This document shows positions 6,017 to 24,038 of a stretch of 43,157 nucleotides of DNA, in pieces. The stretch's first letter is position 1, and every line of letters starts with the position of its first letter. The notes below the pieces were generated by a model, which did no database searches, was not told the origin of the DNA, and saw only the letters and a list, made by a program, of their open reading frames with translations. The DNA comes from Candidatus Gastranaerophilus phascolarcticola (GTDB taxonomy: Bacteria; Cyanobacteriota; Vampirovibrionia; Gastranaerophilales; Gastranaerophilaceae). Location of the stretch: positions 111,274-154,430 of the forward strand of contig MOYE01000009.1 in assembly GCA_001899335.1 (NCBI GenBank). Reading direction: 5' to 3'. The translations under genes and the position numbers were made by a program.

Positions 6017-6020
6017 ATAA

Positions 6021-6051: not shown

Positions 6052-6061
6052 TTGTTATATC

Positions 6062-7217: not shown

Positions 7218-7335
7218 AATTATAGGCATTTTCAAAATATGGTCAGTGTAACGAATTGTAAATCCTGAAAGCATAATATATCAAAAAAGATATTGACGGT
7301 TTTTATTTAAATTCAAATAAAAATTGGAGGTTAAT

Positions 7336-7874: not shown

Positions 7875-7889
7875 ATGCGAAAGAGTAAC

Positions 7890-7913
7890 ACTTCAAATGC
7901 GAAATTTGGAAGA
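7890..7913. repeat. Left copy of a short repeat also found at 11309-11324
   Basis: TGCGAAATTTGGAAGA at 7898-7913 recurs exactly at 11309-11324. Related AAATGCGAAA pieces lie just upstream at about 7873-7905. The repeats bracket the MarR-efflux-acetyltransferase segment. Between 7914 and 8137 I see no gene or clear structure. Confidence 0.5.
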
Positions 7914-8137
7914 ATTATATTGACGGAACAGTAAGTTTAATACATTCAGTGATGATAAAAACCTGCAAAAAATCGCAAATTTCAGAAAGATTTAACAAGT
8001 CTACCTTTTTAAAATTTATGGATGGAACTTTATTAATTTCTTTTTGATATTATACCGTTGATTTTCTCCTTTATTGGTTTGTTTTCAAAACTTTGTAATT
8101 CGATGTTTATTTTGATATTTTATGCAACATAACATTT

Positions 8138-8314
8138 TTATTTTAAATTGACTTCATTTAAAACTTCACGCATTTTTTGTAGTGAATTTATTAAGAATTG
8201 TTGTTCTTCAATACTGATTTTGGACAAAACTTCATTTTGTTGTTCTATTGTTAATTCTTTTAAGAGGCTGTCTATGTAAATAATTTCGTTGTAAATTTTA
8301 AAGAACTTTCTCAT
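8138..8314 (-). CDS. 58-codon protein at the end of the MarR-efflux operon
   Basis: A short open frame starts at ATG 8314, five bases after the stop of the efflux gene. GAGG lies about 11 bases before it, inside the last codons of that gene. The product begins MRKFFKIYNEIIYIDSLLKE and continues as a strongly helical, Glu/Gln/Lys-rich peptide ending VLNEVNLK. It has the composition of a coiled coil and no membrane segment. Length, position and ribosome site support a real small gene co-expressed with the pump. Function unknown. Confidence 0.6.
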   Translation of the reverse strand: MRKFFKIYNEIIYIDSLLKELTIEQQNEVLSKISIEEQQFLINSLQKMREVLNEVNLK

Positions 8315-8319
8315 AATAC

Positions 8320-9903: not shown

Positions 9904-9954
9904 TGCGTACTATTCAACATGATGATAGCAAAAAAATATAATGTGTCAATTTTG

Positions 9955-10470
9955 TTAGAACTTTAAATTAAAATTCTTGATTATCCTTTGAGATAATTCT
10001 AATAGAAAATCTCTTGTTTCGTTTATTTTTTCTAATTCTGAATCACTAATAATCTGACTTGCTGATTTTGAAGATAATTCTTGTGTTTTGTGATACATTG
10101 CTAAACCTTTATCAGTCGCAAAGTTTTTAATTGTTACCTGCTTTTTACCTCTAATGGCTTTCTTTTGGCTTACATAACCGTTATCAATTAATTTTGTTAA
10201 AAGTTTACAAACGTAAGAACGGTTTACCAATATCTTTTTGGCAATATCTATTTGTAAAACACCCGGATTTAAGACAATAGTTTCCAGAACACGCGTTTCT
10301 TCATGTCCGATACCTATATTTGATTCTTTATCAACCTTCTTTCCCGCTTCTGTGCTTGCCTTGATAAGTAGTTCAGCGGCATATAATAAAGAATTACTAT
10401 ATTGTAAGTCTTGGTCTTTCATAAAAAAAATTGTATCATAAAAATGAGATACTATACTTGGAGTTTTCAT
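9955..10470 (-). CDS. MarR-family repressor
   Basis: A 171-aa winged-helix regulator. The DNA-binding core spans residues 60-125: ETRVLETIVLNPGVLQIDIAKK, then recognition helix NRSYVCKLLTKLIDNGYV, then the wing KKAIRGKKQVTIKNFATDKG. Long N- and C-terminal helices for dimerisation flank it. MarR proteins are released from DNA by small phenolic or lipophilic ligands. It lies 51 bp upstream of the DHA2 pump on the same strand, so it most likely controls itself and the pump. Confidence 0.9.
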   Translation of the reverse strand: MKTPSIVSHFYDTIFFMKDQDLQYSNSLLYAAELLIKASTEAGKKVDKESNIGIGHEETRVLETIVLNPGVLQIDIAKKILVNRSYVCKLLTKLIDNGYVSQKKAIRGKKQVTIKNFATDKGLAMYHKTQELSSKSASQIISDSELEKINETRDFLLELSQRIIKNFNLKF

Positions 10471-10566
10471 TGTATGAACACATTACCTCTGAAGATAAAG
10501 GAATGGAACACTATTTCCGACTGTTGTGTCTGTTTCGTATCAATTTAAATCAAGGGGTAACTTTTA

Positions 10567-11097
10567 TTAAATATCCATAGTTTTAGCCAATTTATAAATC
10601 AGATGTATCATTTCTTTATCTCGAACCTTTTTTATAAATTTCCCACAGACTTTTGCTCCAAAATTTTCGGCAACTTTGCGTGAAGGTATATTGTTTGGAC
10701 GAATTTCAAAAATAACATCATTTAAGTTTAAAGTTTCAAAAGCATAGTTTTTTAGTGCGTTAGCAGCTTCTGTTGCGTACCCTTTGTGCCAGTATTCTTT
10801 TTTTAGAATATAACTAATTTCATAATATTGATTACCATCAATTATGTCAGGCATTAATGCAGCTTGCCCAATAATGTTATTTGAAATATTTTCACTCACT
10901 ATGAAATAACCAAGATTGTACTTAGCATAAAGTCCTAAGTTTTTATTAATCCATTCTTGAACATGATTATCTGTAAAATCATACTCCCAAGCATACATAA
11001 CATCTTTATCTTGTAATATTGTTTTTAATTCTTCAAAATCATCTTGAGTTATATATCTTAAATTTAGTCTTTCTGTTTTTAAAAACATATTTTGCAT
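10567..11097 (-). CDS. RimJ/RimL-type GNAT N-acetyltransferase
   Basis: Transfers acetyl from acetyl-CoA to an amine. It has the whole GNAT fold: LKTERLNLRYITQDDFEEL at the N-terminus, the acetyl-CoA loop KEYWHKGYATEAANALKNYAF (Q/RxxGxG/A form), then IRPNNIPSRKVAENFGAK. The substrate could be a protein N-terminus or a small molecule. The frame is open upstream to 11172, but those residues look non-coding; I take the ATG at 11097, with 11088 as an alternative. No ribosome-binding site is evident for either. Upstream lies degenerate repeat DNA. Confidence 0.82.
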   Translation of the reverse strand: MQNMFLKTERLNLRYITQDDFEELKTILQDKDVMYAWEYDFTDNHVQEWINKNLGLYAKYNLGYFIVSENISNNIIGQAALMPDIIDGNQYYEISYILKKEYWHKGYATEAANALKNYAFETLNLNDVIFEIRPNNIPSRKVAENFGAKVCGKFIKKVRDKEMIHLIYKLAKTMDI

Positions 11098-11185
11098 AAA
11101 ATTGATTTTAACATAAAAATGTTTCTTAAAATTTTCCGACTTTTTGGGGAAAATTTCCGACTTAAATTTCAAAAGTCCTGTACCA

Positions 11186-11387
11186 GATTTCGCATTTTAA
11201 CCGTACAAAGGTAAACACCGTCTAAACTTCGGCTATTATTGGGGTTTTGTCAACTGTCCAATCTCGGACAAATTTCGACAGCTCGTGGACTTTTGAGGAC
11301 TGTTGAACTGCGAAATTTGGAAGAGTTCCGACTGCTAATTTTCAAACACGCAGGCTATTTGAGGCGATTTCGCATATTAACCGTACA
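11186..11387. repeat. Direct repeats in the spacer between the acetyltransferase and tRNA-Ser
   Basis: A 22-bp unit (GATTTCGCAT, one variable base, then TTAACCGTACA) occurs at 11186-11207 and again at 11366-11387, exactly 180 bp apart. Between them lies the right copy of the TGCGAAATTTGGAAGA repeat (11309-11324), whose other copy is at 7898-7913. The span 11173-11457 holds no credible gene; it looks like decayed insertion or promoter-duplication DNA. Confidence 0.6.
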
Positions 11388-11457
11388 TTCGTGAAATGTC
11401 CGTTCAAATACAGTTCAAGAGGCATATAAATACAGAAACTGCATGGTAAATAAAAAA

Positions 11458-11481
11458 GCCACCTTAAAAGGTGGCTTTTTT
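11458..11481. terminator. Bidirectional terminator downstream of tRNA-Ser(UGA)
   Basis: GCCACC (11458-11463) pairs with GGTGGC (11470-11475) around TTAAAA, with A-rich sequence before and T-run after, so it can work in both directions. On the minus strand it is just past the tRNA 3' end. Confidence 0.85.
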
Positions 11482-11484
11482 ATT

Positions 11485-11571
11485 AGGAGGAGGTGGGATT
11501 CGAACCCACGGAACGCGTGAACGTTCGACAGTTTTCAAGACTGCTCCAATCAACCGCTCTGGCACTCCTCC
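11485..11571 (-). tRNA. tRNA-Ser (anticodon UGA)
   Basis: A class II tRNA. The acceptor stem GGAGGAG (minus-strand 5' end at 11571) pairs with CTCCTCC ending at 11486. The anticodon loop is CTTGAAA with UGA, the variable arm is long as in serine tRNAs, and the T-arm is GTGGG-TTCGAAT-CCCAC. CCA is not encoded. The base in the discriminator position (11485) reads T on the tRNA strand, where serine tRNAs usually have G; the second tRNA-Ser in this window (39915-40001) has G. Its 3' end faces the accessory segment. Confidence 0.95.
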
Positions 11572-11625
11572 AAGGAGTTTGGATACATTTATTCTATACG
11601 CTGAATTTTTATTGTCAACATTTAA

Positions 11626-11786
11626 TGTCCGAGAAATTTTCGCGATTCGTCAGTATCGCGAAAATTTGGAGTGGCACTCTGCCGAGCAAAACAATTGAGT
11701 ATTGTTTTGTGAGAGGTAGGCAGCGCAGCCACGCACGGCTCGCGGTTCAGCGAGGCGGGAGGTGGCGGAGAACTGCTTTTTACCTT
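11626..11786 (+). repeat. GC-rich dispersed structured element, copy A
   Basis: Shares with 27581-27695 a fixed 5' start (GTCCGAGAAA), a conserved CAGCGCAGCCACG block (11720-11732) and a conserved 3' block AGGTGGCGGAGAACTGCTTTT. Between these are stems that differ in sequence but keep pairing: TTTTCGCGAT with ATCGCGAAAA, AAAACAAT with ATTGTTTT, CTCGC with GCGAG. GCCAC of the middle block can pair with GTGGC of the last block. It is far more GC-rich than its surroundings and lies 35 bp upstream of the M23 peptidase gene. Its translations share only GRWRRTAF with copy B and are not credible proteins. Confidence 0.65.
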
Positions 11787-11820
11787 AGCAAAAAATATTT
11801 TTTAGAGGATTTAGGATATT

Positions 11821-12678
11821 ATGAAGATTTTTGCGCATTCTTTTAACTTTCATAGAAAACTTATTCCGTTTATAACGGCGGTTGGGCTTATGGTCCCTGC
11901 AAAAACTGCTAAAGAAGCCGCCGTTATTTTACCAGACCTGGCACACGTCGTTACTCTTCTGCCGCAAAAATGTGCTGAAAATTTGAATGCCAAAGCTCTT
12001 GAAGGCTTAAAAATTGTCTGTGATACTAATTTTAGAGGCGGTGTAACACACAGGTTTGACGAAAATTCAGTTAAAACTCTCAAAATGCGCATTTTAAAAC
12101 CCGAGGATGAAGTTAAATATAAAGCGCCAATCGAAAATTCTAAAAATGTTTACCTGGAACCTTTTGGAATGTTTTTCGCAAAACGCCCTGACGGTAAAAA
12201 GTCACGACCGCATTTAGGGCTTGATATTTTTGTTAGCAAATTCTCTCGGAAACCTAAGACGCCGGTGCTCGTTCAAGCGCCTTTGGATGGTGTTGTTATT
12301 GCACATAAACGTGCACGTGAAAAGGACAATGTAATTGCGAATGCTGTGGTTATGCTTGGAGTTGACGGTAGAAGATATGCCTTTGACCACCTTGCGCGTC
12401 CAACGGATTATAAGGATTCTGTAGCTCTTCCTACAGTTGGCAAAATTCTAAAGGCGGGAGATCCAATAGGTTATGTGGGTAGTACGGGTGAAACTTCTAT
12501 GTGGCATCTTCATTTTTCTGTTATGACGGATGAGATGCTTGAAAAACAGATGAAAGATAAATTTTGGTTGGATTTGGCGGCACGTACTCAATATGCAACG
12601 TTAAAGGGGCAGGTTGATCCGTTGAATTTTGAGGATGCAGGTCCAATTGCGAAACTAATCAATCAATATCGCCGTTAG
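11821..12678 (+). CDS. M23-family (LytM-type) metallopeptidase
   Basis: A peptidoglycan endopeptidase or division-activator type protein of 285 aa. The catalytic zinc site is visible: HLGLD (H131, D135) and HLH at 229-231 within GETSMWHLHFSV. The core strands QAPLDGVVIAHK, RRYAFDHLARP and AGDPIGYVGSTG match the lysostaphin fold. The N-terminus has a hydrophobic stretch (about 14-30) that could be a signal or membrane anchor, followed by a 90-residue unknown region. All zinc ligands are present, so it is probably active, unlike EnvC-type activators. Its stop codon overlaps the stop of the convergent gene at 12675. Confidence 0.9.
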   Translation: MKIFAHSFNFHRKLIPFITAVGLMVPAKTAKEAAVILPDLAHVVTLLPQKCAENLNAKALEGLKIVCDTNFRGGVTHRFDENSVKTLKMRILKPEDEVKYKAPIENSKNVYLEPFGMFFAKRPDGKKSRPHLGLDIFVSKFSRKPKTPVLVQAPLDGVVIAHKRAREKDNVIANAVVMLGVDGRRYAFDHLARPTDYKDSVALPTVGKILKAGDPIGYVGSTGETSMWHLHFSVMTDEMLEKQMKDKFWLDLAARTQYATLKGQVDPLNFEDAGPIAKLINQYRR

Positions 12679-13319
12679 CTTTCAGTTAACAGATGAAATT
12701 TGTCGCTTGGCAGACGGAACAAATCAGGGTCTATGCAATCATTCTTAAAGCCTAGATGTCTATAAAAACTTCTGCCGCTTTGCAGCGCTTCAAGTTGTAT
12801 TGAGTCCAGTGATTCGTCATGGATTTTTATGATATTTCGTAAAATTGCTTTACCAGCCCCCTTTATTTTATCGGAGACTTTAAACTGAAAGCCTAAAAAC
12901 GATATTAGTTTTTTGTCAGGTTTGCGGATTTTATTATTTTCTGATTTTGTTTCTAAATGATTTATGAAGAAAATATTTCCGTCACGCCAGTCGCAAGTAT
13001 ATGTACCATCGCAGAGTCCTATAATTTGATTAGGATTTAGGTCTTTATGCCCCATTCGCTGACGGGTTAGGGCAAAGGCTCTGCAGCTTCCGTCAGTAAG
13101 ACAGCGTAAATTCGTTAAAATTTCTGCGCCCAGTGCACTGTAAGGATCTTGAGCAACATAGGTTTTTATACTCGGTATGTCGTATTTTTGTTCCAGCTCG
13201 ACAAAATCCACATCTATCTTTTTATAAAAAGGAATGAATGGAAGTTTTTCTTTTATTTTTGTTGTTGAAATATATTTTGCACCAAAGTTTTGTGTTGGTG
13301 AAGAGTTTCTTATTTCCAT
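12675..13319 (-). CDS. GNAT-like acetyltransferase with an N-terminal FGAKY tag
   Basis: A 214-aa protein whose C-terminal half (about 115-205) has GNAT features: IIGLCDGTYTCDW then INHLETKSEN (strands 4-5 region), KGAGKAILRNIIK for acetyl-CoA binding, and SGRSFYRHLGFK for the last helix. The first half is unassigned and contains two Cys. The very N-terminus, MEIRNSSPTQNFGAKY, is low-complexity and looks like a detachable tag; other hypotheticals in this window have a similar short run ending in an FG motif. Substrate unknown. No Shine-Dalgarno is evident. The stop overlaps that of the M23 gene. Confidence 0.65.
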   Translation of the reverse strand: MEIRNSSPTQNFGAKYISTTKIKEKLPFIPFYKKIDVDFVELEQKYDIPSIKTYVAQDPYSALGAEILTNLRCLTDGSCRAFALTRQRMGHKDLNPNQIIGLCDGTYTCDWRDGNIFFINHLETKSENNKIRKPDKKLISFLGFQFKVSDKIKGAGKAILRNIIKIHDESLDSIQLEALQSGRSFYRHLGFKNDCIDPDLFRLPSDKFHLLTES

Positions 13320-13359: not shown

Positions 13360-14550
13360 TTAGAGCAATATTTGGGTTCCGACCATGAAACGGTGGGAGT
13401 CTTCTCTTCCCTGGTTTTGGCAGAAGATGTAGTTGAGAATAAGTTTCAAACCTTGTCCTTTGATAAAGTAGTTTATGCCGGCGGTGTATTCTCGTCTCAT
13501 ATTGTGACCTACGTTTCTGTCCGGATCAAATTGGTCGTATCTGGCTAATATTTGCAATTTTGGGGTGATTTTATAACCTATGGTTGAATAAAAACCTGAA
13601 GTTTGTTTATTGGTATATCCGGCAACCCCGTTGGAACCGTCTGCCTGTGCCCATTCAAAGTTGGCGAAAAATCTTTTGTATTCGTAACCTGCATAAGCGC
13701 CTGCAACAAAGAACTCTCCGCTGCCGTATTGACCGCCGTTAATGCCGCCGCCAAGTTTAAGATTTCCGTATTTGCCGTTTGTTTTGCCAAGCGGTTTAAG
13801 GTTTACCCAGCCTGTAAATTCTACGCCCGGGAAGAATTTTTTAAAATATGTGTCAGAACTGTAGCCGCCAAAATCGTAATCGACTAAATCATAATTACCC
13901 TGAACTCTGATACCGAATTTACGAACTGTACCGTAGGTTCTGGAAATCTGTGAACGATTGACAAACGGGAGGGTATAAGGGCTTTGACCGCCTTCAACAC
14001 CTATAGGGGGACGGGAGTTCCCGAACATTACGCGGTGGTGCGGGATTCTGTTTGTGGCTATGTATAAATCGGCAGGTAAATTTTGCCAAAATGTTCTGTT
14101 ATGAACAGGGTTAAAGTTGAACATAAGGCGAAAGTCTTCTTTCCCGCCTCGAAATTTACCGTCTATACCAACATTCAGGTGACCTTCCGAATAGTCTACT
14201 GTTGTTGGGGCATTATGTCCCATTGAAAGTCCGACTTGCGGCAGAATTGAACCCCACAGGTGAAGGCTTTCAATAGGACCCTTTTGGGTGTGCACAGTTA
14301 ATTTGTCTGCAAGCAGGTGATATGGAATATCAGTTCTTTCAACTTCACCTTCCAGAATTTCGTGAACCTTTTCTTTGAATGTTTTTTCGTGGGGGATTTC
14401 GATATCCTGTATTTTAGGGGTTTCCTGAACTTTCTCTACTTCTGATTCAAGTATGATGTCTTTTAATTCGATTGGCGCAATGTCTTCTATTGCGTGTACG
14501 GGCATAAATGATAATAACGTTAGTGTAAATATTAAAAAAATCTTTTTCAC
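13360..14550 (-). CDS. Outer-membrane beta-barrel (porin-like) protein
   Basis: A 396-aa exported protein: signal peptide MKKIFLIFTLTLLSFMPVHA, then a 60-residue acidic, helical periplasmic stretch, then an Ala/Gly/Tyr-rich barrel. Alternating strands such as KFGIRVQGNYDLVDYDFGGY and KLQILARYDQFDPDRN are typical of phosphate-selective porin-like or OprP-type proteins. The last strand ends HRFMVGTQILL; a terminal Leu rather than Phe is tolerated in some cyanobacterial-type barrels. The start is GTG at 14550 with AAAGG about 13 bases upstream. It follows the Ehr-type operon on the same strand but behind a hairpin. It indicates a didermic cell envelope. Confidence 0.85.
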   Translation of the reverse strand: MKKIFLIFTLTLLSFMPVHAIEDIAPIELKDIILESEVEKVQETPKIQDIEIPHEKTFKEKVHEILEGEVERTDIPYHLLADKLTVHTQKGPIESLHLWGSILPQVGLSMGHNAPTTVDYSEGHLNVGIDGKFRGGKEDFRLMFNFNPVHNRTFWQNLPADLYIATNRIPHHRVMFGNSRPPIGVEGGQSPYTLPFVNRSQISRTYGTVRKFGIRVQGNYDLVDYDFGGYSSDTYFKKFFPGVEFTGWVNLKPLGKTNGKYGNLKLGGGINGGQYGSGEFFVAGAYAGYEYKRFFANFEWAQADGSNGVAGYTNKQTSGFYSTIGYKITPKLQILARYDQFDPDRNVGHNMRREYTAGINYFIKGQGLKLILNYIFCQNQGREDSHRFMVGTQILL

Positions 14551-14617: not shown

Positions 14618-15349
14618 TTACTTGCAACCTAAATAATCAAGTATTCCGTTGATAATTGTCAGCGGGTGTGCCGGACAGCCCGGAATATACAAATCTACCG
14701 GGTGGCGTTGGAAAAATTCACGGTCGATTTCGTCAGAGTCTTGGAATACACCGCCGGAAATCGCGCAGGCGCCGACAGCGATTACAATTCTTGGTTCAGG
14801 CGTTGAAAGGAATGTATCTTCCAATGCTTTTGCCATATTTTTTGTCACAGGACCTGTGATTACAACGCCGTCTGCGTGGCGTGGAGAGGCTACAAAGTCA
14901 ATACCGTATCTTCCGATATCAAAGTTTGCATTTGAGCAGGCGTTGAGTTCCATTTCGCAGGAATTGCAGCCGCCGGCTGAAACTTGACGCAATTTCAATG
15001 ATTGCCCGAAGACTTTGACTATTTCTTCTTTTGCAGCAATCGGATTGATTTCGCCGTTGACAATTAAATCTTCACGTTTTGTTGCGCTGTATTTGTGGTT
15101 GCGGGTAAATGAAATTGCTCCGTTTGATACGCGGGCGCATTCGCCGCAGAAAATACATTTGCCAAGGTCGATTTTCTTGTCGTCTGTGATTGCGCAGGTC
15201 GGACAAACCTTTTGGCATTCTTCAAGGTTCGTTAGTTTTTCCTCGTCGATTACAGGGATTCCGCGGAATTTAGGTTTAATTTCGCGACCTCTTATGTCTT
15301 TTATTATCTGATTTTTTTGTAAGTGAACAGTTTTTAATGTTTTTAACAT
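14618..15349 (-). CDS. Fused ferredoxin-small subunit (HyfH+HyfI/NuoI+NuoB-like) of Ehr-type complex
   Basis: Electron-input module of the complex, 243 aa. Residues 1-85 are a ferredoxin domain with C45-x3-C49-P and C65-x2-C68-x2-C71, where the usual fourth Cys is S75. Counting ligands, C65, C68, C71 and C49 can hold one [4Fe-4S] cluster, while the set for the other cluster is gone. Residues 118-243 are the NuoB-like small subunit with all four ligands of the proximal cluster: C128-x2-C131, C195 and C225 in IPGCPAHP. In Hyf, Hyc and complex I these are separate proteins. AAAGGAAA precedes the ATG; the gene is last in the six-gene operon. Confidence 0.9.
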   Translation of the reverse strand: MLKTLKTVHLQKNQIIKDIRGREIKPKFRGIPVIDEEKLTNLEECQKVCPTCAITDDKKIDLGKCIFCGECARVSNGAISFTRNHKYSATKREDLIVNGEINPIAAKEEIVKVFGQSLKLRQVSAGGCNSCEMELNACSNANFDIGRYGIDFVASPRHADGVVITGPVTKNMAKALEDTFLSTPEPRIVIAVGACAISGGVFQDSDEIDREFFQRHPVDLYIPGCPAHPLTIINGILDYLGCK

Positions 15350-15363
15350 GATGTTTTCCTTTA

Positions 15364-16794
15364 TTATAGGTCAAATCCACAGTATGAAAGGTCAAAGCTC
15401 TTGTTGCAGACTGGGAAGTCTGAAATCTGGTTATTTCTGACAGCAAGTGCCAAGCCGAACCAGTTGTGGAATGACGGGTCTTTGATTTTGTATTGTTCGA
15501 TTGCGCCGGCTTTATCGGTGATAATTGCGTGGCAAATTTCGCCTCTCCAGCCTTCCGTAAACGTCAAACACATACTGTCTTTTGCGTAATCTGTTTTTAT
15601 TTCAGGTGTTTCAAGGCTTCCGTTTAGTTCTTCAAGCATTTCTAAAATCATTTCTTTAGATTGTTTGATTTCCAAAAATCTCTGGTAAGCTCTTGCCCAA
15701 ACGTCGCCGTTGTGTGCGGAAACCGGTGTGAAGTTCTTGTAATCGCCGTAAATTCTGTTGTCAACGATTACACCTGACGCTCTTGCCGCAGGACCAACCA
15801 TACCGATTTCTTCTGCTTTTTTGGTTGAAACAAGACCGGTATTTTCAAGTCTTGATAAAACGGTTGCGTTACCAAACATTGCATTGCACATTTCAGTTAC
15901 GCGGGAATCGACTTCATCAAGCATTGAAGTGATTTTGCCTTTGAGTTCGTCATCGATATCAAAGTTTACGCCGCCAATTCTCATTAAACCTTTACCAAAA
16001 CGGCTTCCGGAGATTTCAAGCATTGTATTGATAACGAGGGTTCTTGTAACGCCCAGAACATTTGCTGCCATAAGGTAAGCAATATCTCCTGCGATTGCGC
16101 CAATGTCACCGATATGGATTGCCATACGTTCCATTTCGAGTGCAATTTTACGAATTGTTTTAGCGCGAGGGCAGACGTTCATTCCTGAAAGCGCTTCCAA
16201 GCCAGCTGCAAAAGTCATTGAATGACCGATTGTAGTATCACCGCAAATTGATTCTGCAAGCCAAATGTTAGGATTGTTTTTAATCATTTTTTCAACGCCG
16301 CGGTGTTGCCAGCCAAGTTGGATTTCAAGGTGCATTACGCGTTCACCCTGGCATAAAAATCTAAAGTGACCCGGTTCAATAATCCCTGCGTGAACAGGAC
16401 CTACCGCAACTTCGTGTGATTGAAGATCATCGGATTTTAAAAATTCATAACCCTCATTCACTCTGACCGGTTTTAAGAACGGGTGACCTGACGGACGAAT
16501 CCCGTAGTTTTCGTAAATTTCACGTTCAAACATGTGAACTGATGAACGTTTTACTGTCAGTGACGGGTATTCGTTGCCGACAATAGTGCTTGCAATGTGA
16601 AGTTCTGCGTTTTTATCGTCCGCGATTACCGCGTACATATTGTTTTTGTATTCCTCCTGATTGATAAACAGGTTTGCTACGCGGTAGTGGGTGTCTGTTA
16701 CCAAACGTTCAAATTCGCTAAATTCCAATACTGGAATATCTGATTTCTTTATTACTTCGTTATTTTTAAATTTAAGTGTTTTTGTCATTACCAT
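15364..16794 (-). CDS. Large subunit (HyfG/NuoCD-like) lacking nickel-binding cysteines
   Basis: A 476-aa fusion of a NuoC-like domain (about 20-110, ending EIYENYGIRPSGHPFLKPVR) and a NuoD/hydrogenase-large-like domain (from GPVHAGIIEPGHFRF at 132). In [NiFe] hydrogenases two CxxC pairs bind nickel. Here the first site reads ESICGDTTIGH: C184 remains but the second Cys is Thr. The second reads SFDLSYCGFDL at the C-terminus, where D-P-C-x-x-C would be expected. Nickel binding is therefore lost, and the C-terminal maturation peptide is absent. The fold otherwise matches group 4 and complex I, so this is the Ehr-type large subunit. ATG 16794 has AGGTGG 6 bases upstream; ATG 16788 is an alternative. 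Confidence 0.92.
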   Translation of the reverse strand: MVMTKTLKFKNNEVIKKSDIPVLEFSEFERLVTDTHYRVANLFINQEEYKNNMYAVIADDKNAELHIASTIVGNEYPSLTVKRSSVHMFEREIYENYGIRPSGHPFLKPVRVNEGYEFLKSDDLQSHEVAVGPVHAGIIEPGHFRFLCQGERVMHLEIQLGWQHRGVEKMIKNNPNIWLAESICGDTTIGHSMTFAAGLEALSGMNVCPRAKTIRKIALEMERMAIHIGDIGAIAGDIAYLMAANVLGVTRTLVINTMLEISGSRFGKGLMRIGGVNFDIDDELKGKITSMLDEVDSRVTEMCNAMFGNATVLSRLENTGLVSTKKAEEIGMVGPAARASGVIVDNRIYGDYKNFTPVSAHNGDVWARAYQRFLEIKQSKEMILEMLEELNGSLETPEIKTDYAKDSMCLTFTEGWRGEICHAIITDKAGAIEQYKIKDPSFHNWFGLALAVRNNQISDFPVCNKSFDLSYCGFDL

Positions 16795-18041
16795 ATTATA
16801 CCACCTGCGTTTTTAATTAGTTCAAATAGTCCGTTCGGCATGTAAATACCAAGTACAATTGCTGTCGCAATCAGGAAAATTTGAGGTATATAGTTACTGA
16901 TTGGTAATTTTACCGGTTCAGTTTCGTTATTATTTGTTGTATAGTTCATTTTCAATACTGTGTTCATAATTCCGAAGAGGATAATTGTTAACAGCAATAC
17001 GGTTACAACGCACAACACAACTTGTCCGTTAAGCAGGAATTGCTTGATAATCAAAAATTCTGAAAGGAACAGCGGTGATGGCGGAATCGCAAGGATTAAC
17101 ATTGCGCCCAAAAGCCATAACCAGGAGGTGCATTTGTTTTTGCTTACCAAGTCCTTAACCTCATCAACTTCTTTTGTATTGTATAGGTGTAAAATGTTGC
17201 CTGAAGTAAGGAACAGAGAGCTTTTAATCAATGAGTGGCAAAGTACGTGAATCAATGCCCCGATTGTACCTAAGCTGCCCAAAGCAATACCGATTGAAAT
17301 TATACCCATATTTTCTACAGAAGAATAAGCAAGCATTCTTTTGTAGTTTTTAATTCTGTAAACGTAAACCGCAGTGATGAAGATTGAGAGTAAGCCCATT
17401 GTAAGCATTAAAACCTGTACAGTGTGACCTAAACCCGCAAGGCTCATCAATTTAACGAGTCTGAGGATAACGAGAACCGCAGAGTTTAACAATGTTGCGG
17501 ATAACATTGCGGAAACCGGTGACGGCGCTTCAGCGTGCGCGTCAGGCAGCCAGCTGTGAACCGGTGCGAAACCCGCCTTTGTACCAAAACCGATTAAAAT
17601 AAATATGAATGATAATTTTAACCAGAAAGGATTTATTGCCGCAGCGTTTGCGTACAAATCATTATAGAACAATGAGTTTACGCTTCCTGAACCTATAAGC
17701 AATAAAATTATGCCCACGAACGCCAGTGAAATACCGATTGAGCAAAGGAAAACGTATTTCCAGGTCGCTTCAAGTGAGTTTTTTGACTTGTGCAGCATAA
17801 TCAAATATGCGCTGGTTAAAGTCGTTGCCTCTACGAATACCCAAGTTAAACCCAGGTGGTTACTCAAAAGCGCGCCGACCATTGAAAGGAAGAACAAGAA
17901 GAATATTGAATAATATTTCAGGTTTTCCTTAGCGTTTTTGCAGTAGTTGAACCCTTGGTAAAACATCACACAAACGGTTACAACAACAAGTGCAATTAAA
18001 AATAATATGTTTAAACTGTCTAATACAAAATAATTATTCAT
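16788..18041 (-). CDS. Antiporter-like membrane subunit (HyfF/NuoN-like)
   Basis: A 417-aa Mrp-antiporter-type proton or sodium channel subunit with about 12 membrane helices. Diagnostic runs: GFGTKAGFAPVHSWLPDAHAEAPSPVSAMLSA with its membrane Lys, YKRMLAYSSVENMGIISIGIALG, and HVLCHSLIKSSLFLTSGNI. These place it in the NuoL/M/N family, closest in order and size to HyfF, though shorter than E. coli HyfF. It overlaps hyfE by 8 bp upstream and hyfG by a few bases downstream. One of two antiporter-like pumps in this complex. Confidence 0.9.
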   Translation of the reverse strand: MNNYFVLDSLNILFLIALVVVTVCVMFYQGFNYCKNAKENLKYYSIFFLFFLSMVGALLSNHLGLTWVFVEATTLTSAYLIMLHKSKNSLEATWKYVFLCSIGISLAFVGIILLLIGSGSVNSLFYNDLYANAAAINPFWLKLSFIFILIGFGTKAGFAPVHSWLPDAHAEAPSPVSAMLSATLLNSAVLVILRLVKLMSLAGLGHTVQVLMLTMGLLSIFITAVYVYRIKNYKRMLAYSSVENMGIISIGIALGSLGTIGALIHVLCHSLIKSSLFLTSGNILHLYNTKEVDEVKDLVSKNKCTSWLWLLGAMLILAIPPSPLFLSEFLIIKQFLLNGQVVLCVVTVLLLTIILFGIMNTVLKMNYTTNNNETEPVKLPISNYIPQIFLIATAIVLGIYMPNGLFELIKNAGGIIW

Positions 18042-18744
18042 CTTTCGCCATCTCGCTATCTTTTAAATTACAAAGTTGTGAAACATCAGGGTTGCCGTAG
18101 ATATTGCCGATTTCGCCAATCAACAAGCCCAAAATGAATACCGCTATAAACACATCAAGTAAAACACCGAGGTTTACGATTAGCGGCATTTCTTTCGCGA
18201 TTGAAAGTGAAAGAAGGAAGATGCCGTTTTCAAGCATTGCAAACCCGATTACGTGAGTGAGCAATTTCTTTTTGATTGCAATGAAAACAAACGCAGTGAT
18301 AATTGTAGAAACAGATACGCCGAAGTAAAGGCTTGAAATGTTTTGCAAAATATCAGCCTGGCTGCTTGCAATCATAAACCCTGCAAACAGGATTATTGTT
18401 GAAATTACCAAAGTATAGAAGTTAGGGAATTGAGGGTTGTTATCCCTTTTGATGTTACTTTTTTCAGCGACTCTATCCAAAACGTTAGGGATGATAAGTG
18501 CTTTGACAACGAAAGTTTCCACAATTAGGAATGCCGCGCCAACAAGTGTGTCAATGTGTGTGAACAAAGAGGTTATTGCTGCCCAGATGCTTGAAGTATC
18601 AAGTTCGTGGATATGTGAGATTATGGTTATAAAGCAAAGGATTATACCTTGAAGTCTCAACATATTAGTCTGTGCTGCAATACGGCTTGAGGTTGCCATA
18701 TATAACATTGAAATCCCGAATATAACAATTAATAAGTTAATCAT
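18034..18744 (-). CDS. Membrane subunit HyfE-like (NuoK/MrpC-related)
   Basis: A 236-aa protein with about six or seven membrane helices. The second half (LTHVIGFAMLENGIFLLSLS and GVLLDVFIAVFILGLLIGE) carries the NuoK/MrpC-type pattern with membrane glutamates that relay protons. The first half corresponds to the extra helices of HyfE. The ORF starts 1 bp after the HyfC-like gene and overlaps the next gene by 8 bp, which indicates tight translational coupling. Role: part of the ion-translocating arm. Confidence 0.88.
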   Translation of the reverse strand: MINLLIVIFGISMLYMATSSRIAAQTNMLRLQGIILCFITIISHIHELDTSSIWAAITSLFTHIDTLVGAAFLIVETFVVKALIIPNVLDRVAEKSNIKRDNNPQFPNFYTLVISTIILFAGFMIASSQADILQNISSLYFGVSVSTIITAFVFIAIKKKLLTHVIGFAMLENGIFLLSLSIAKEMPLIVNLGVLLDVFIAVFILGLLIGEIGNIYGNPDVSQLCNLKDSEMAKDE

Positions 18745-18745
18745 A

Positions 18746-19651
18746 TTACAGATGTCCTCCGTGCATAATTAATAGAACAAGAGCCATTACAATTAACGCA
18801 GCAACGATTAATGTAAAAGTATATTCTATTATGTGGGTAAGTCTAATTCTAGCGCATAAAGATTCGATTATGCCGATTAAAACAGCGATAGCAAGCGCAA
18901 CAAGCACAGACCCAACGAAGCTTAATGGTGCGATTGTCATTGTGATGATTGTTGTGAAAAGCATCATTTTTAAAGCTGCGCCATATTGAATGAACGCTAA
19001 ATCAACACCAGAGTTATCAAGAACCATAACTTCGTGAATCATAGTTAATTCAAGGTGTGTTTTAGGGTCGTCAATCGGAACTCTTGAACCTTCGATAAGG
19101 ATTATTAAGAATAAAGCGAAAACGGTTGCAAGAGCAATCAAAATCATAATGTCGTTGTTAGACCAGAAAAGGTGCGCGAGTGACGCGAAAGAGTAAACTC
19201 CGTTCAGCGCGCATATTGATGAAATTATGATGAAGAAAGCCGGTTCAATTAATGAAGTGTAGCTAACTTCTCTTGAAGCGCCCATCCCCTCAAAACTTGA
19301 GCCAGTATCCATAGCCGCCGCAACGGAAACGAATTTGCCCAAAGCCAAGAGGTAAGAGAAGAGGATAAAATCACCCTCAAAGTGGATTACCGTAACCAGC
19401 ATTGCCGCAACGATTAAGCAGGCAAGGTTGATTACTGGCGCAACACGGAAAATTCCTGTTGCCGTCTCGCTTATAACTTCACCCTTGTTCATAAGTCTGT
19501 TAAAGTCAAAATAAGGTTGGAAAATGCTTGCGCCTTGTTTTCCTGCGAATTTTGCTTTTACTTTATTAATTACACCAATGAATAAAAATGGAAGTGATAA
19601 TAATAATATCATTTTTAATATTGGAAAAATAATCATTGTTAAAAGTGCCAT
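18746..19651 (-). CDS. Membrane subunit HyfC/NuoH-like
   Basis: A 301-aa NuoH/EchB/HycD-type subunit that joins the redox module to the membrane arm. Seen: FQPYFDFNRLMNKGEVISE (the conserved loop near the iron-sulfur module), the acidic loop LIEGSRVPIDDPKTHLELTMIHEVM, and about eight helices. The frame is open to 19711, but ATG 19651 follows AGGAGG closely and overlaps the HyfB stop as TAATG, so translation is coupled there. Second gene of the operon. Confidence 0.92.
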   Translation of the reverse strand: MALLTMIIFPILKMILLLSLPFLFIGVINKVKAKFAGKQGASIFQPYFDFNRLMNKGEVISETATGIFRVAPVINLACLIVAAMLVTVIHFEGDFILFSYLLALGKFVSVAAAMDTGSSFEGMGASREVSYTSLIEPAFFIIISSICALNGVYSFASLAHLFWSNNDIMILIALATVFALFLIILIEGSRVPIDDPKTHLELTMIHEVMVLDNSGVDLAFIQYGAALKMMLFTTIITMTIAPLSFVGSVLVALAIAVLIGIIESLCARIRLTHIIEYTFTLIVAALIVMALVLLIMHGGHL

Positions 19652-21606
19652 TATATTTTTCCTCCTAATACCAGGCATATTGCGATAATCAATGCAACAA
19701 CGCCGTACCATAAGTATCTTTGAGTGTTACCGCTTTGAATCCAGTAGAACTTAGAGAGTAAGTTTTCATCGAATTTAACAAGCGGGTTGATGATATAGTA
19801 TTCAAAGATATCGTAAATTTTAGATTTGAACGATGTTTTTTCAGGGAACAAGTCCTTGATAGGTTTGAACTCCATAACTCTTACGTAGAACGGATTTAGG
19901 AAGCCTAAGAACGGTCTTGTGAAAGAGGTTGAAGTATATTGAACTTTTGCCGTTCCTTTGTCGTATCCGCAGCCCCAAGTGTTTCTTACGGTAACGGTTT
20001 TGCCGGCAAGGAAAGCCTTTCTAACCAGTAGAAGAACTCCGATTGTAATCAGCAAAGTAATGTTGAAGAATGAGATTACAGTCAGGATTTCAACAGGGTA
20101 TATGAATTGAACGAGTTCGTTTGTCGCCCCGCCAATCAAAAGGATTGAATATTGCGGGAATAAACCGATTAGTGAAAGGATTACGACGAGCGCAATCATT
20201 GGACCAACCATTGACATAGGAACTTCGCTTTTAACGTGTTCAGCTTTTTCGGTTCTAGGGTTTCCTAGGAAAATTGTGCTGTAAGCGCTAGTGAAAGCAA
20301 CCATTGCGGTCGCGCCGACAAACGCTAAACCAGCCATTGCCAAAATCATCACAGGAATTAATAAATAATTAGGTGTGTTGAAAGAGTTCAAGAAACCGTA
20401 ATAGATTAAAAATTCACTGATAAAACCGTTGAACGGAGGCAATGCGCACAATGCCATTGAGCCGATAAGGAAACAGAAAGCTGTTTGAGGCATAACTTTT
20501 GCCAAACCGCCCAGCTTTTCCATATCCTTAGTGTGAGTTTTATTATAAACCGCACCTGCAGCAAAGAACATTAAAGGTTTGAATACCGCGTGGTTTATGA
20601 TGTGCATAAAGCATCCGAGGAAACCTAAGGTTTTTAAACCAATGTTGTGGTATGCAATACCTAAAATTCCAAGCCCGAGAGCGAGGGTAATAATACCCAT
20701 ATTTTCAATTGACGAGTAAGCGAGCATTTTTTTGAAATCTCTTTGCCCTGTAGCGTAGAGGATTCCAAGTAAAGCTGTTGCAACGCCGACCGCAAGGATT
20801 GCATAACCCAAAGCGGCAGACGGTTCGTTTAATAATTGGGTCATTCTTAAAATTCCGTAAATCCCGGTTTTAATCATAACGCCGGACATTAAAGCTGAAA
20901 TATGGCTAGGTGCAACCGGGTGAGCTTTGGGCAGCCAAGTATGAACAGGAACGAGACCTGCTTTGATACCGAACCCGATGAACATAAGCGCATAAATCAA
21001 CGGTGTAACTTGTCCGTTGAAATCAAAGAACCAAATACTTCCGGTTCTGATGTTTAAAAGGACAAAGCCTGCAATTAAAAATAAAACCCCAATGTGCATA
21101 GTAACCAAGTAGCGCATTGCGGTTTTTCTAACACTTGCCTGATCCGCGTCGAAAAGCATTAAGAGGAATGAGCTAAAGCTCATAATTTCCCACGCGATAA
21201 GGAAAGCAAAAACATTTTGAGATAACACGACTAAAATCATTGAGATGACAAAGATGTTAAAACAGAAGTAATGAGAATTAACGCTTTTGCCGGCTTCAAC
21301 GTATTTAGCGAGGTAGCCTTTAGAGTAAATCATAGCGAGCCAAGAAACCACGGCTATGATAAGAACAAAAAAGGCGGATAATCCATCTAATGATAAAACG
21401 ACATTAACGAGAGTATTGCCGAACTCAAACATTAAGTCTTGGTTGTAGCTTTGGCTAACGAAACAGCCCAGGGTTCCGCCAACAGCTAACAAGGTTGCAA
21501 TAGTGTTTAACGCAATAAGGTAGTTACATTTTTGGTTTTCTTTAAAGAAGTATTGCGTAAACGCACCGAATAAATAAGTGATAAGGGCTAGTACAATAAG
21601 TTTCAT
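19651..21606 (-). CDS. Antiporter-like membrane subunit (HyfB/NuoL-like)
   Basis: First gene of the operon, 651 aa. Antiporter core helices: FLIAWEIMSFSSFLLMLFD, GFGIKAGLVPVHTWLPKAHPVAPSHISALMSG, RDFKKMLAYSSIENMGIITLALG and HIINHAVFKPLMFFAAGAV, all conserved in HyfB, HycC and NuoL. The C-terminal ~130 residues include a soluble loop (VRNTWGCGYDKGTAKVQYTSTSFTRPF), common in HyfB/HycC, and a last helix. It pumps H+ or Na+ when electrons pass through the redox subunits. A weak AGGAAAT site precedes the ATG at 21606. Confidence 0.93.
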   Translation of the reverse strand: MKLIVLALITYLFGAFTQYFFKENQKCNYLIALNTIATLLAVGGTLGCFVSQSYNQDLMFEFGNTLVNVVLSLDGLSAFFVLIIAVVSWLAMIYSKGYLAKYVEAGKSVNSHYFCFNIFVISMILVVLSQNVFAFLIAWEIMSFSSFLLMLFDADQASVRKTAMRYLVTMHIGVLFLIAGFVLLNIRTGSIWFFDFNGQVTPLIYALMFIGFGIKAGLVPVHTWLPKAHPVAPSHISALMSGVMIKTGIYGILRMTQLLNEPSAALGYAILAVGVATALLGILYATGQRDFKKMLAYSSIENMGIITLALGLGILGIAYHNIGLKTLGFLGCFMHIINHAVFKPLMFFAAGAVYNKTHTKDMEKLGGLAKVMPQTAFCFLIGSMALCALPPFNGFISEFLIYYGFLNSFNTPNYLLIPVMILAMAGLAFVGATAMVAFTSAYSTIFLGNPRTEKAEHVKSEVPMSMVGPMIALVVILSLIGLFPQYSILLIGGATNELVQFIYPVEILTVISFFNITLLITIGVLLLVRKAFLAGKTVTVRNTWGCGYDKGTAKVQYTSTSFTRPFLGFLNPFYVRVMEFKPIKDLFPEKTSFKSKIYDIFEYYIINPLVKFDENLLSKFYWIQSGNTQRYLWYGVVALIIAICLVLGGKI

Positions 21607-21654
21607 ATTTTCTAATATTTCCTAATATTACCTATCTCTCTTTTTCAAGAATAA

Positions 21655-21682
21655 ATAATACTCCGTAAAGTATAGATTTCAA
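21655..21682 (-). promoter_or_regulatory. Candidate promoter of the Ehr-type operon with internal dyad
   Basis: On the minus strand TTGAAA (21682-21677), 16 bp, TATTAT (21660-21655). The spacer contains the dyad ATACT-n6-AGTAT (21658-21673), a possible operator. The XRE regulator encoded next upstream on the same strand (21755-21970) is an obvious candidate to bind it (inference). Confidence 0.5.
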
Positions 21683-21754
21683 GGGGAAATATTGAAATGC
21701 GTTCACAATTTTAACAAAGCGGAGAAACCTAAGTGCCGCAATAGTTTTCGTTGA

Positions 21755-21970
21755 TTATACGTCTTTAATAAATTCGTTAATATCCACATTAAGGGCGCGG
21801 GCTATGTCAATTATAGTGAGAACAGAAGTTTTATGGTTACCATTCTCAATATTACTAATTGTATCGTTTGAAACTCCAACTAATTCCGCAAGTTTTTCTT
21901 GCGAAACATCTTCTTTAATTCTAATTATCTTGATGTTATAACCTAGAGTTTTCAGACGTGAATTTCTCAT
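21755..21970 (-). CDS. Small XRE-family HTH regulator
   Basis: A 71-aa protein that is almost only a Cro/CI HTH: NIKIIRIKEDVSQEKLAEL, VSNDTISNIENG (recognition helix), then SVLTIIDIARALNVDINEFI. No effector domain. It resembles the many small YozG/HipB-like regulators. It is located 149 bp upstream of the Ehr-type operon on the same strand and divergent from the metG operon, so it could govern either. No toxin partner is adjacent. Confidence 0.88.
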   Translation of the reverse strand: MRNSRLKTLGYNIKIIRIKEDVSQEKLAELVGVSNDTISNIENGNHKTSVLTIIDIARALNVDINEFIKDV

Positions 21971-21987
21971 AACTATATTTTAAGGTA

Positions 21988-22016
21988 TTGACATTTTTGT
22001 TTCCACCGTATATCTT
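21988..22016 (+). promoter_or_regulatory. Promoter of the LuxR-like-metG-aroK-aroB operon
   Basis: TTGACA (21988-21993), 17 bp, TATCTT (22011-22016), 73 bp before the GTG at 22089. The -35 box is perfect, the -10 imperfect. It lies in the spacer shared with the divergent XRE gene. Confidence 0.6.
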
Positions 22017-22088
22017 TATAAAAGACTGAAAACTTTCAGTTAATATGGTAAAATTTAATTGGATTTAGAAAATATTCGGAGGGGTAGA

Positions 22089-22412
22089 GTGGAGATAGAA
22101 CCAAGAGCAATACTGGAATTGTGGGCAAAAAATGTACCTTTGAAAAAACTTGTCAATGCGTTAGAAAAAGAAGATAGGATGAGAAGACGTTACCCTGAAC
22201 CGGAATTGACACTGATTGAGGCAAATGTGTTGGCTGCCATTGCTGACGGCAGGGTTAAGAAAGAGCTTGAAACTGCTATCAATTTGTACGCTGCAAAACA
22301 CGATTACAAGGATTCCTATAACGCTATTGTGAGGCGTTTAATGACTAAATTTGAGGCTTTTACGATTGCGCATGTCGTTTATAAAGCAATGAAAGTTGGT
22401 ATAATTGAGTAA
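22089..22412 (+). CDS. LuxR/GerE-type HTH protein
   Basis: A 107-aa regulator with a C-terminal HTH of GerE type: LTLIEANVLAAIADGRVKKELE, then a longer-than-usual loop (INLYAAKHDYKDSY), then AIVRRLMTKFEAFTIAHVVYKAMKVGIIE. The first 40 residues are a charged helix region with no receiver or PAS domain. The frame is open back to a TTG at 22059, but GGAGGGG lies right before the GTG at 22089, so I choose that. First gene of a run with metG, aroK and aroB. The insertion in the HTH makes the DNA-binding assignment likely, not certain. Confidence 0.7.
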   Translation: MEIEPRAILELWAKNVPLKKLVNALEKEDRMRRRYPEPELTLIEANVLAAIADGRVKKELETAINLYAAKHDYKDSYNAIVRRLMTKFEAFTIAHVVYKAMKVGIIE

Positions 22413-22469
22413 AATTTTCTGTTTATGCTATACTTTTTCCATAATTATATAATAAGAGGGAATTTGAAT

Positions 22470-24038
22470 ATGGAAAAATATTATTTAACTACAGCAATCG
22501 ACTACGTTAACGGCAAACCACATATCGGACACGCTTATGAAAAGATTTTGACAGATATTATCGCACGCCACTATTCACAACGCTGCGAGGACGTTTTCTT
22601 CCTCACCGGAACCGACGAACACGGGGTTAAAATCCAAAAAACCGCTGCAGCTCAAGGCATTACACCAAAAGAACTTTGCGATATGAACGCCCAGTCTTTC
22701 AAGGACGCGTGGAAAGCTCTTGATATTGATTATACAAAATTTATCAGAACTACCGATAGTTATCACGAGGCTGTTGTTCAAAAAATATTCAAAAAACTTG
22801 TTGAACAGGGCGACATCTACAAGCATTCATACGAGGGCTGGTATTGCTCCGGCTGTGAATGTTTCCTGAACCCGAAAGATTTGACTGAAGACGGACTTTG
22901 TCCTGACCACCTTAAAAAACCGGAAATCGTCAGAGAAGAAAATTATTTCTTCCGTCTTTCAAAATACAAAGACGCTATTATTAAACATATTAAAGAAAAC
23001 CCTACTTTCATTGTGCCGGCGTTCAGAGCTAACGAAGTTTTGAACCAGCTTGAAGACATTCAGGATATTTCGGTTTCACGTGCCAAGTCAAACGTAAGCT
23101 GGGGCGTGGATGTCCTGGATGACCCTGAACAGGTAATTTATGTTTGGATTGATGCGCTTTCTAACTACATCACAGCTATCGGTTACGACGTAGAAAACCC
23201 GTCAGAAGAATTTAAAAAATATTGGCCGGTTGACGTTCATGTTATCGGTAAGGATATTTTGAAATTCCACAGTATTTACTGGATTGGAATTTTAATGGCA
23301 TTGGGTCTGCCTCTTCCAAAACACATTTTTGCGCACGGCTGGATTACGATTGATGAATCAAAAATGTCAAAATCTCTTGGCAACGTAATCTCTCCGACAA
23401 GCGTTTTGGAAAGTTTTAACCTCGAAAACGCAGATGCGTTCAGATATTATATGGCAACTTCTGCACCTTGCGGACGCGACGGAAACTATTCTGATAACGA
23501 CTTCAAAGAAAAAGTTAACGCGCACCTTGCAAACAGTATGGGAAACCTCTTAAACAGAACGCTTTCTATGCTTGTTAAATACTTTGACGGTGAAATTAAA
23601 CCGGAATTTACAGTAAACCCTCAATTGAAAAAACTTGCTGTAAATACTGTTGGTTTTGTGGAAAATCATTTTGATAATTTTGCGATTGCGGAGGCTGGAC
23701 AAGAAATTATGGCACTTGTTGACGCAACAAACAAATACGTAACTGACAACGCGCCTTGGACTCTTGCGAAAGAAGAGAAGATGGACGAATGCGGCTCGGT
23801 TTTAAGAACTGTATTGGAAGTTATGTGTACTGTTTCTTCATTAATCTATCCATTCTGTCCAAATATAGCCCGGTCGATGAGTACCCAGTTGGGCTATAAT
23901 TTAGACACAAGGCTTGATGATATTATAAATATGGATTATAATATCATCCAAGACGGAAAGCTGATTAGTAAAGAAGAGATTAAACCGGTATTTTTGCGTT
24001 TGGATAGCGAGTTTGCTGATAAGCAATCAAAAAAATAA
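22470..24038 (+). CDS. metG: Methionyl-tRNA synthetase
   Basis: Charges tRNA-Met with methionine. Class I signatures: PHIGHAYE at 17-24 and KMSKSLG near residue 300. A single zinc knuckle (CSGCECFLN... CPDH) marks the short MetG type. WASHID-type substrate residues are in the central domain, and a helical anticodon-binding domain fills the last 170 residues. At 522 aa it lacks the C-terminal tRNA-binding (Trbp111-like) domain that some bacterial MetG have. ATG 22470 follows AGAGGGAA; the upstream in-frame ATG at 22425 has no ribosome site. Followed after 12 bp by aroK. Confidence 0.96.
   Translation: MEKYYLTTAIDYVNGKPHIGHAYEKILTDIIARHYSQRCEDVFFLTGTDEHGVKIQKTAAAQGITPKELCDMNAQSFKDAWKALDIDYTKFIRTTDSYHEAVVQKIFKKLVEQGDIYKHSYEGWYCSGCECFLNPKDLTEDGLCPDHLKKPEIVREENYFFRLSKYKDAIIKHIKENPTFIVPAFRANEVLNQLEDIQDISVSRAKSNVSWGVDVLDDPEQVIYVWIDALSNYITAIGYDVENPSEEFKKYWPVDVHVIGKDILKFHSIYWIGILMALGLPLPKHIFAHGWITIDESKMSKSLGNVISPTSVLESFNLENADAFRYYMATSAPCGRDGNYSDNDFKEKVNAHLANSMGNLLNRTLSMLVKYFDGEIKPEFTVNPQLKKLAVNTVGFVENHFDNFAIAEAGQEIMALVDATNKYVTDNAPWTLAKEEKMDECGSVLRTVLEVMCTVSSLIYPFCPNIARSMSTQLGYNLDTRLDDIINMDYNIIQDGKLISKEEIKPVFLRLDSEFADKQSKK

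Follow-up and report, generated by a model that had tools for sequence, protein, structure and literature searches.

The subject of this article is a six-gene operon on the minus strand of contig MOYE01000009.1 (assembly GCA_001899335.1) of Candidatus Gastranaerophilus phascolarcticola, where it occupies positions 14618-21606 of the 43,157-nucleotide stretch that was analyzed, hereafter the window (positions 111,274 to 154,430 of the contig). Judged from its sequence, the operon encodes an energy-converting hydrogenase related (Ehr) complex, which is related to group-4 hydrogenases and to complex I but has no conserved set of metal ligands in its active-site chamber. The six open reading frames (ORFs) are uninterrupted and have the coordinates that an earlier note on this DNA had given, and comparisons with Pfam, NCBIfam, and the PDB agree with its naming of the subunits as HyfB, HyfC (NuoH), HyfE, HyfF, a fused NuoC-NuoD/HyfG large subunit, and a HyfH-HyfI fusion (Table 1). 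HyfD of the E. coli hyf operon has no counterpart. The hyfC ORF as first listed begins too early, and a likelier start is the ATG at 19651, which overlaps the hyfB stop codon (TAATG) and has AGGAGG upstream. The large subunit is single-copy in the genome, and in comparisons with the close relatives L002, L004, and L005 every one of the six genes has a ratio of nonsynonymous to synonymous substitution (dN/dS) of 0.03-0.08, which indicates genes maintained under purifying selection, neither decaying nor produced by sequencing errors. Five loci share 88-92% large-subunit identity with the window; the titles of four name Candidatus Gastranaerophilales or Melainabacteria, that of the fifth Fusobacterium sp. 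The latter (L004, JAMPIJ010000007.1) carries an Ehr operon that is 90% identical and has the gene order of the window, and this metagenome-assembled genome is probably mislabelled.

Table 1. Coordinates of the Ehr operon, its altered motifs, and the adjoining porin gene in the window
Feature	Positions	Strand	Remarks
hyfB/ehr antiporter-like subunit (NuoL/MrpA type)	19651..21606	-	651 aa; proton-path E140, K215, K246, E398 conserved
hyfC (NuoH-like anchor)	18746..19651	-	probable start
hyfE-like membrane subunit	18034..18744	-	236 aa; 7 predicted transmembrane segments
hyfF antiporter-like subunit	16788..18041	-	417 aa; E71, K155, N186, E328 conserved; shortened N-terminus
ehrL/hyfG, fused NuoC+NuoD large subunit	15364..16794	-	476 aa; without [NiFe] ligand set, without quinone H38/Y87
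C184-G185-D186-T187, in place of first NiFe motif CxxC	16234..16245	-	G185 and D186 conserved, C184 not
C-terminal N464-K-S-F-D-L-S-Y-C-G-F-D-L476, in place of DPCxxC	15367..15405	-	protein end, no tail
hyfH-hyfI fusion	14618..15349	-	243 aa; ferredoxin-like domain (C49, C65, C68, C71, inner [4Fe-4S] only), then proximal-cluster subunit (C128, C131, C195, C225)
Porin_O_P-like outer-membrane porin	13360..14550	-	67 nt downstream of hyfHI; homologues adjoin Ehr and a FocA-type gene in other genera

The assignment to Ehr is based on a large subunit homologous to those of group-4 hydrogenases but deprived of the Ni/Fe-coordinating residues, on Mrp/Nuo antiporter-like subunits, and on a separate clade. 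In a tree of 56 large subunits, 47 Ehr-type rows were split from HyfG/HycE, MbhL, and complex I by a branch with 100/100 support, which bears out the Ehr identity proposed earlier and, together with motifs shared by relatives and the low dN/dS, speaks against the possibility raised in the earlier note of a place inside the catalytic [NiFe] hydrogenases with Cys changes due to sequencing error. The tree program flagged long branches where the deep groups join, which leaves their branching order uncertain, and the Ehr label rests on features, as the tree contained no published sequence bearing that name. Hydrogenase-4/formate hydrogenlyase 2 (FHL-2) of E. coli offers the nearest organizational parallel, with the subunit order B-C-E-F-G-H-I, a NuoC-NuoD fusion in HyfG, and a formate channel gene alongside, hyfR and then focB lying downstream of hyf. 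Unlike that system, the window has no CxxC/DPCxxC ligands, HyfA or HyfD, its genome has neither formate dehydrogenase (FDH) nor HypD, and HyfH and HyfI are fused. On plasmid 3 of Variovorax sp. PBL-E5 (L076), two different Ehr-like clusters lie nearly in tandem at 5731-13015 and 16427-23254.

The active-site chamber of the large subunit has been emptied of its ligands. Residues C184-G-D-T align with CGIC of MbhL, HycE, and HyfG, and D468-L-S-Y-C472-G aligns with DPCYSC of HycE and HyfG, both motifs being exactly as reported earlier. In an alignment of 119 rows (the query and 118 of the 120 listed homologues, two being dropped as not longer than 400 aa), position 184 holds Cys in 109, Ala in 5, Ser in 4, and a gap in 1; Ser stands there in a genome of the same genus (G045, L010), and further Ehr proteins have Ser, Ala, Val, or Gly at this position. 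None of the four Ni-ligand positions has a conserved Cys, and the variation at position 184 indicates that selection does not maintain a set of Ni ligands, so the earlier claim of at most one remaining ligand is right about the loss of nickel ligands but grants C184 a constancy that it does not have. C184 and C472 are both Cys in 107 rows, both replaced in 5, and singly replaced in 6, the remaining row having the gap at 184; a remnant metal site between them was considered and rejected because each Cys is replaced in some relatives. The two may be neighbours but are not essential. Around them, G185 and D186 are kept in 118/119 rows, as is E140, the equivalent of MbhL E21, and S470, Y471, G473, D475, and L476 are invariant in 119/119. 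The complex I quinone residues H38 and Y87 (Nqo4) correspond to I139 and G185. The large subunit matches PF00374 weakly, below the cut-off, with no match in the search of its own genome; the nearest folds by Foldseek, HycE for the large subunit and MbhJ, add little, and the C-terminal motif has a predicted local confidence (pLDDT) <50 in the structure model.

The electron wire leading to this chamber is conserved in part. In an alignment of the HyfH-HyfI fusion comprising 120 rows (the query and 119 of the 120 listed homologues, one shorter than 220 aa being dropped), the proximal cluster keeps the hydrogenase spacing C128-x-x-C131, C195, and C225 in 120/120, and the inner-cluster ligands C49, C65, C68, and C71 are complete in 119/120. 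Of the outer-cluster Cys, 52 rows have all four, 40 have three, and 28 have at most two, and in the clade of the window one of the four is left; the terms outer and inner follow what we take to be the arrangement in complex I structures. Cluster ligands were also read in 34 loci of the family (35 were tried, L025 giving no match; 30 best matches and 5 others, not a random sample), in all of which the inner [4Fe-4S] site is complete, while the outer site keeps its four Cys in 13, is down to two Cys in 10 and to a single Cys in 9, and has lost them all in 2, the 21 degenerate sites falling in genera g1, g5, g7, g12, g15, g18, g23, g25, g33, and g39. The complex of the window has two complete [4Fe-4S] binding sites. 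The membrane-bound hydrogenase (MBH) of P. furiosus (6cfw), the PDB entry to which both peripheral subunits are most similar in sequence, shares E21 and the proximal-cluster spacing but differs in its NiFe site, lost here, and in having ligands for two clusters rather than one in its ferredoxin-like part. According to excerpts of PMC7684303, the P. furiosus sulfur-reducing complex MBS/Mbx (6u8y) has a proximal cluster of three Cys in a shortened loop, lacks the E21 equivalent, and lacks NiFe and quinone residues. The ligand, quinone, and proximal-cluster comparisons indicate that the chamber fits none of three described chemistries, those of protons, of quinone, and of sulfur in the manner of MBS. 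In L078 and L079, from Azospirillum and Rhizobium plasmids, Ehr-like clusters have a short NuoB-type proximal-cluster subunit and no HyfH gene is annotated in the cluster.

In the membrane arm, HyfB and HyfF retain the Glu, Lys, Lys/Asn, and Glu positions in transmembrane (TM) segments TM5, TM7, TM8, and TM12 of E. coli NuoM and HyfF, which we take to form the proton path; the pump residues of the two antiporter-like subunits recognized earlier are thus intact. HyfF of the window genus and of G041 is without the first two TM segments predicted in relatives, the N-terminus of the window protein being ~61 residues shorter than that of L060, a shortening that G041 (L051) shares.

The genomic setting was surveyed in 191 family genomes that were at least 80% complete and sampled evenly from a larger group, together with 14 control genomes. 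The large-subunit query found matches in 85 of the 191, of which 59 were counted as Ehr (E <1e-90). Among the weaker matches, 12 loci were read as an 11-subunit complex I by gene order and size; eight subunits of L039 were confirmed by Pfam (NuoA, B, C, D, H, I, J, K), and two upstream ORFs had no Pfam match. This complex I-like cluster (L039-L050), with no evident NADH module, occurs in many Gastranaerophilales, and 16 genomes carry Ehr too. HypD was found in 0/191 family genomes, the window's own included (controls 4/14; other Hyp proteins were not searched for), which extends to the whole genome the earlier statement that no maturation genes lie nearby. The molybdopterin oxidoreductase family PF00384 was likewise found in 0/191 (controls 11/14), as was Rnf/Nqr (controls 4/14), and cytochrome bd gave one weak fragment and 0/191 above cut-off (controls 10/14). 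Conversely, 2-oxoacid:ferredoxin oxidoreductase (POR) is present in 188/191, the window's genome having two copies, one of which forms a three-gene operon together with genes for POR_N/PFOR_II and thiamine diphosphate (TPP)-binding subunits. The [FeFe] hydrogenase is present in 169/191 and absent from all 7 genomes of the window genus and from 15 others (two by deduction). Ehr occurs in 19/22 genomes without [FeFe] hydrogenase versus 40/169 with it, a difference that is no more than suggestive, the 19 genomes belonging to three genera (g1, g20, and g23); same-genus G135 has neither enzyme. In the window genus, which retains ferredoxin-reducing enzymes, no ion-pumping ferredoxin oxidizer other than Ehr was found. 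An excerpt of PMC4040986 reports NiFe hydrogenases from koala-gut Gastranaerophilales; given the absence of HypD, these might instead belong to Ehr or complex I.

A lead to function is the tight link to a channel, which the earlier note had missed. Channels of the FNT (formate-nitrite transporter) family scored above the cut-off in 50/191 genomes, comprising 49/59 with Ehr and 1/132 others. After removal of three genomes with other FNT subtypes lacking Y-L-R (G077, G101) or a fragment resembling that of G101 (G125), a FocA-type channel was counted in 47/59 Ehr genomes versus 0/132 others; G145, whose gene is split over two contig ends, was included, and the weak sub-cut-off matches of G027 and G181 are in neither count. 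These channels were recognized as FocA-like by family membership, by NCBIfam and PDB comparisons, by pore residues, whose numbering we assume, and by the C-terminus, which reads Y-L-R/K in 44 of the 47, Y-I-R in two (G045, G071), and is a fragment in one. Excerpts of PMC5572259 associate a terminal Y-L-R/K with FocA-related FNTs that translocate formate. Where pyruvate formate-lyase (PFL) is present, the channel occurs in 26/31 Ehr genomes versus 0/40 others, and where PFL is absent, in 21/28 versus 0/92; the channel follows Ehr with or without PFL, and a role solely as an exit for PFL formate is rejected. That formate is the obvious cargo in the 26 Ehr genomes with both channel and PFL, not in the other 21. 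Across 18 genera containing both kinds of genome, the rate of FocA-type genes is higher in Ehr genomes in 13, tied in 5, and lower in 0. Of the 47 genomes, 18 have the gene no farther than 8 kb from hyfG, 6 have it on the same contig at 10-141 kb, and 23 have it on another contig, so the hitch-hiking of one travelling cassette does not by itself explain the pairing. In the window's own genome it is on another contig, among neighbours that give no functional hint. Outside the genus, 6/18 Ehr loci read (L052, L057, L060, L061, L062, L067) have an FNT gene together with a Porin_O_P-like gene upstream of hyfB and divergent from it, and the same porin follows hyfHI in the window genus and in L051. 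The PFL of the window's genome (L087, contig C8) is split inside its glycyl-radical domain into a 694-aa ORF (7978-10062) and an 84-aa ORF of the C-terminal half (7705-7959), near radical-SAM activase-like and ODP/flavodiiron-like ORFs; PFL parts on separate ORFs recur in many family genomes.

Based on these observations, the complex may be a ferredoxin-fed ion pump that converts or responds to a small one-carbon (C1) anion, most likely formate, which would cross the membrane through the co-occurring FocA-type channel, a reading to which we give a probability of about one half. The fused HyfH domain would take up electrons from 2-oxoacid:ferredoxin oxidoreductases at its inner cluster and hand them on by way of the proximal cluster to a small, diffusible molecule within the emptied chamber, and the potential drop would power ion pumping by the antiporter-like subunits HyfB and HyfF, the small anion presumably moving through the channel. 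Ferredoxin is favored as donor because POR is present, Rnf is absent, [FeFe] hydrogenase is absent from the genus, and the inner cluster is retained. The earlier note had argued for this donor from the fused ferredoxin itself, an argument that the single remaining outer-cluster Cys, and two or fewer in 21/34 loci, weakens, although the oxidoreductase genes retained in the genome would still provide reduced ferredoxin. Formate, more than hydrogen, is the likely link of the complex: excerpts of PMC7894505 describe Ehr subunits of Geobacter sulfurreducens (GSU0739-45) as more abundant on formate than in hydrogen-containing conditions, and those of PMC6349859 describe Ehr-bearing Saganbacteria and Riflemargulisbacteria with genomic regions holding fdhA and nuoE/F-like genes. 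As no FDH was found in the family, the cargo of the channel would meet either Ehr or an unrecognized enzyme. NAD(P)+ or sulfur are possible acceptors, and bicarbonate is a possible cargo.

Several observations weigh against this reading. The outer-cluster ligands of HyfH are mostly lost, which disfavors an ordinary two-cluster entry from ferredoxin, and no conserved redox-active group was found in the chamber, which makes the turnover of a two-electron substrate hard to explain. The published links to formate stem from organisms that possess FDH. Two FNTs scored 260 and 244 bits against the FocA equivalog TIGR04060, below its cut-off of 290, and the window genome's own FNT (L072 9462-10343) is nearest to Chlamydomonas LCIA (43% over 235 positions), followed by V. 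cholerae FocA (39%), E. coli FocA (37%), and NirC (32%), the first two values being computed on the aligned parts; this proximity and the sub-cut-off scores are what make a bicarbonate cargo possible. The channel is not obligatory, being missing from 12/59 Ehr genomes; for Variovorax and Allomeiothermus, the gene tables, which are incomplete, list no FNT within 11 kb of the Ehr clusters. Finally, the genome counts were tallied without a species tree and are not independent.

Among the alternatives, Ehr could act as a ferredoxin:NAD(P)+ oxidoreductase through an unlinked flavoprotein, replacing Rnf, with the FNT merely exporting fermentation acids. The lack of Rnf from all 191 genomes and the concentration of Ehr in genomes without [FeFe] hydrogenase (19/22, all in g1, g20, and g23) would suit this role, and excerpts of PMC6349859 repeat a ferredoxin:NADP+ function for the related Mbx. 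However, Pfam detects neither a flavin-binding nor an NAD-binding subunit among the products of the operon and 14 other window proteins (most neighbours in relatives were not scanned, and soluble flavoproteins were not searched for genome-wide), and the channel tracks Ehr even in genomes without PFL (21/28 versus 0/92), so this explanation is considered unlikely.

A sulfur reductase resembling MBS, reducing polysulfide or disulfide at the proximal cluster and releasing HS- through the FNT, is a distinctly weaker candidate. Some FNTs conduct HS-. The architecture is related, with a NiFe-less chamber free of quinone residues, two antiporter-like subunits, and ferredoxin feeding in MBS/Mbx as well (excerpts of PMC7684303). 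The difference lies at the catalytic end, where the window family keeps four Cys with hydrogenase spacing (120/120) instead of three in a shortened loop and retains E140 (118/119), and in the channel, which is FocA-like with Y-L-R/K.

For a quinone-reducing enzyme of the complex I type, the common fold and ancestry, the alignability of the large subunit to NuoD/Nqo4, and the restriction to a proximal cluster beside the chamber, which complex I shares, can be adduced. Yet the window lacks H38 and Y87, the adjacent Cys pair of cluster N2, and an NADH module in the operon; cytochrome bd is not found above cut-off in the 191 genomes (quinone biosynthesis was not searched for), and other family genomes have a separate complex I, all of which renders a quinone function improbable.

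More speculative is the proposal that Ehr is a ferredoxin-dependent, ion-pumping CO2 reductase, interconverting CO2 and formate without Mo, W, or Ni at the proximal [4Fe-4S] cluster and a chamber of conserved D186, K465, S470, Y471, and D475, with formate leaving through the FocA-type channel; we hold this to be a long shot.

A supercomplex of FDH and Ehr, as proposed for Riflemargulisbacteria and Saganbacteria in excerpts of PMC6349859, would account for the formate-type channel but is contradicted in this family by the lack of PF00384 (0/191 versus 11/14 controls), and only an FDH too divergent for the profile could rescue this very remote option. A catalytic [NiFe] hydrogenase obscured by sequencing errors or unusual ligands, for which the weak PF00374 match and the HycE-like fold might speak, can practically be dismissed, since the four Cys ligands (CxxC ... 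DPCxxC) are lacking, the altered motifs are common to the 119 aligned rows and to archaeal and bacterial relatives, HypD is absent, and the tree places the protein outside the catalytic enzymes.

Ehr complexes, including those of Melainabacteria, are not new, having been known there since 2019 from four genomes (excerpts of PMC6349859), and the earlier interpretation is on the whole partly supported. The published complexes share with the window Hyf/Ech-like subunits, an antiporter-like arm, and the loss of Ni/Fe-coordinating residues, and a connection with formate is reported for them too, either as higher abundance on formate or as FDH genes elsewhere in the genome (excerpts of PMC7894505 and PMC6349859). 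The window differs in having a FocA-type channel instead of any FDH detected in 191 family genomes, a degenerate outer ferredoxin cluster, and a shortened HyfF. What is new is the co-occurrence with the FocA-type channel, the family-wide absence of HypD, FDH, and Rnf, the degeneration of the outer cluster, and the position of Ehr as the only ion-pumping ferredoxin oxidizer of the genus; no paper linking Ehr with an FNT channel was found among titles and abstract openings in the open-licence PMC literature.

In a gut lineage described in excerpts of PMC5877343 as lacking respiratory chains, an ion pump without a known electron acceptor is thus widespread (59/191 genomes). The redox partners of Ehr have been an open question, and the distribution of the channel (47/59 versus 0/132), in the absence of FDH, Rnf, HypD, and above-cut-off cytochrome bd, points to a small anion of the formate type. 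Should the CO2 reductase proposal prove true, formate would take the place of hydrogen as electron sink in those gut relatives of cyanobacteria that lost [FeFe] hydrogenase.

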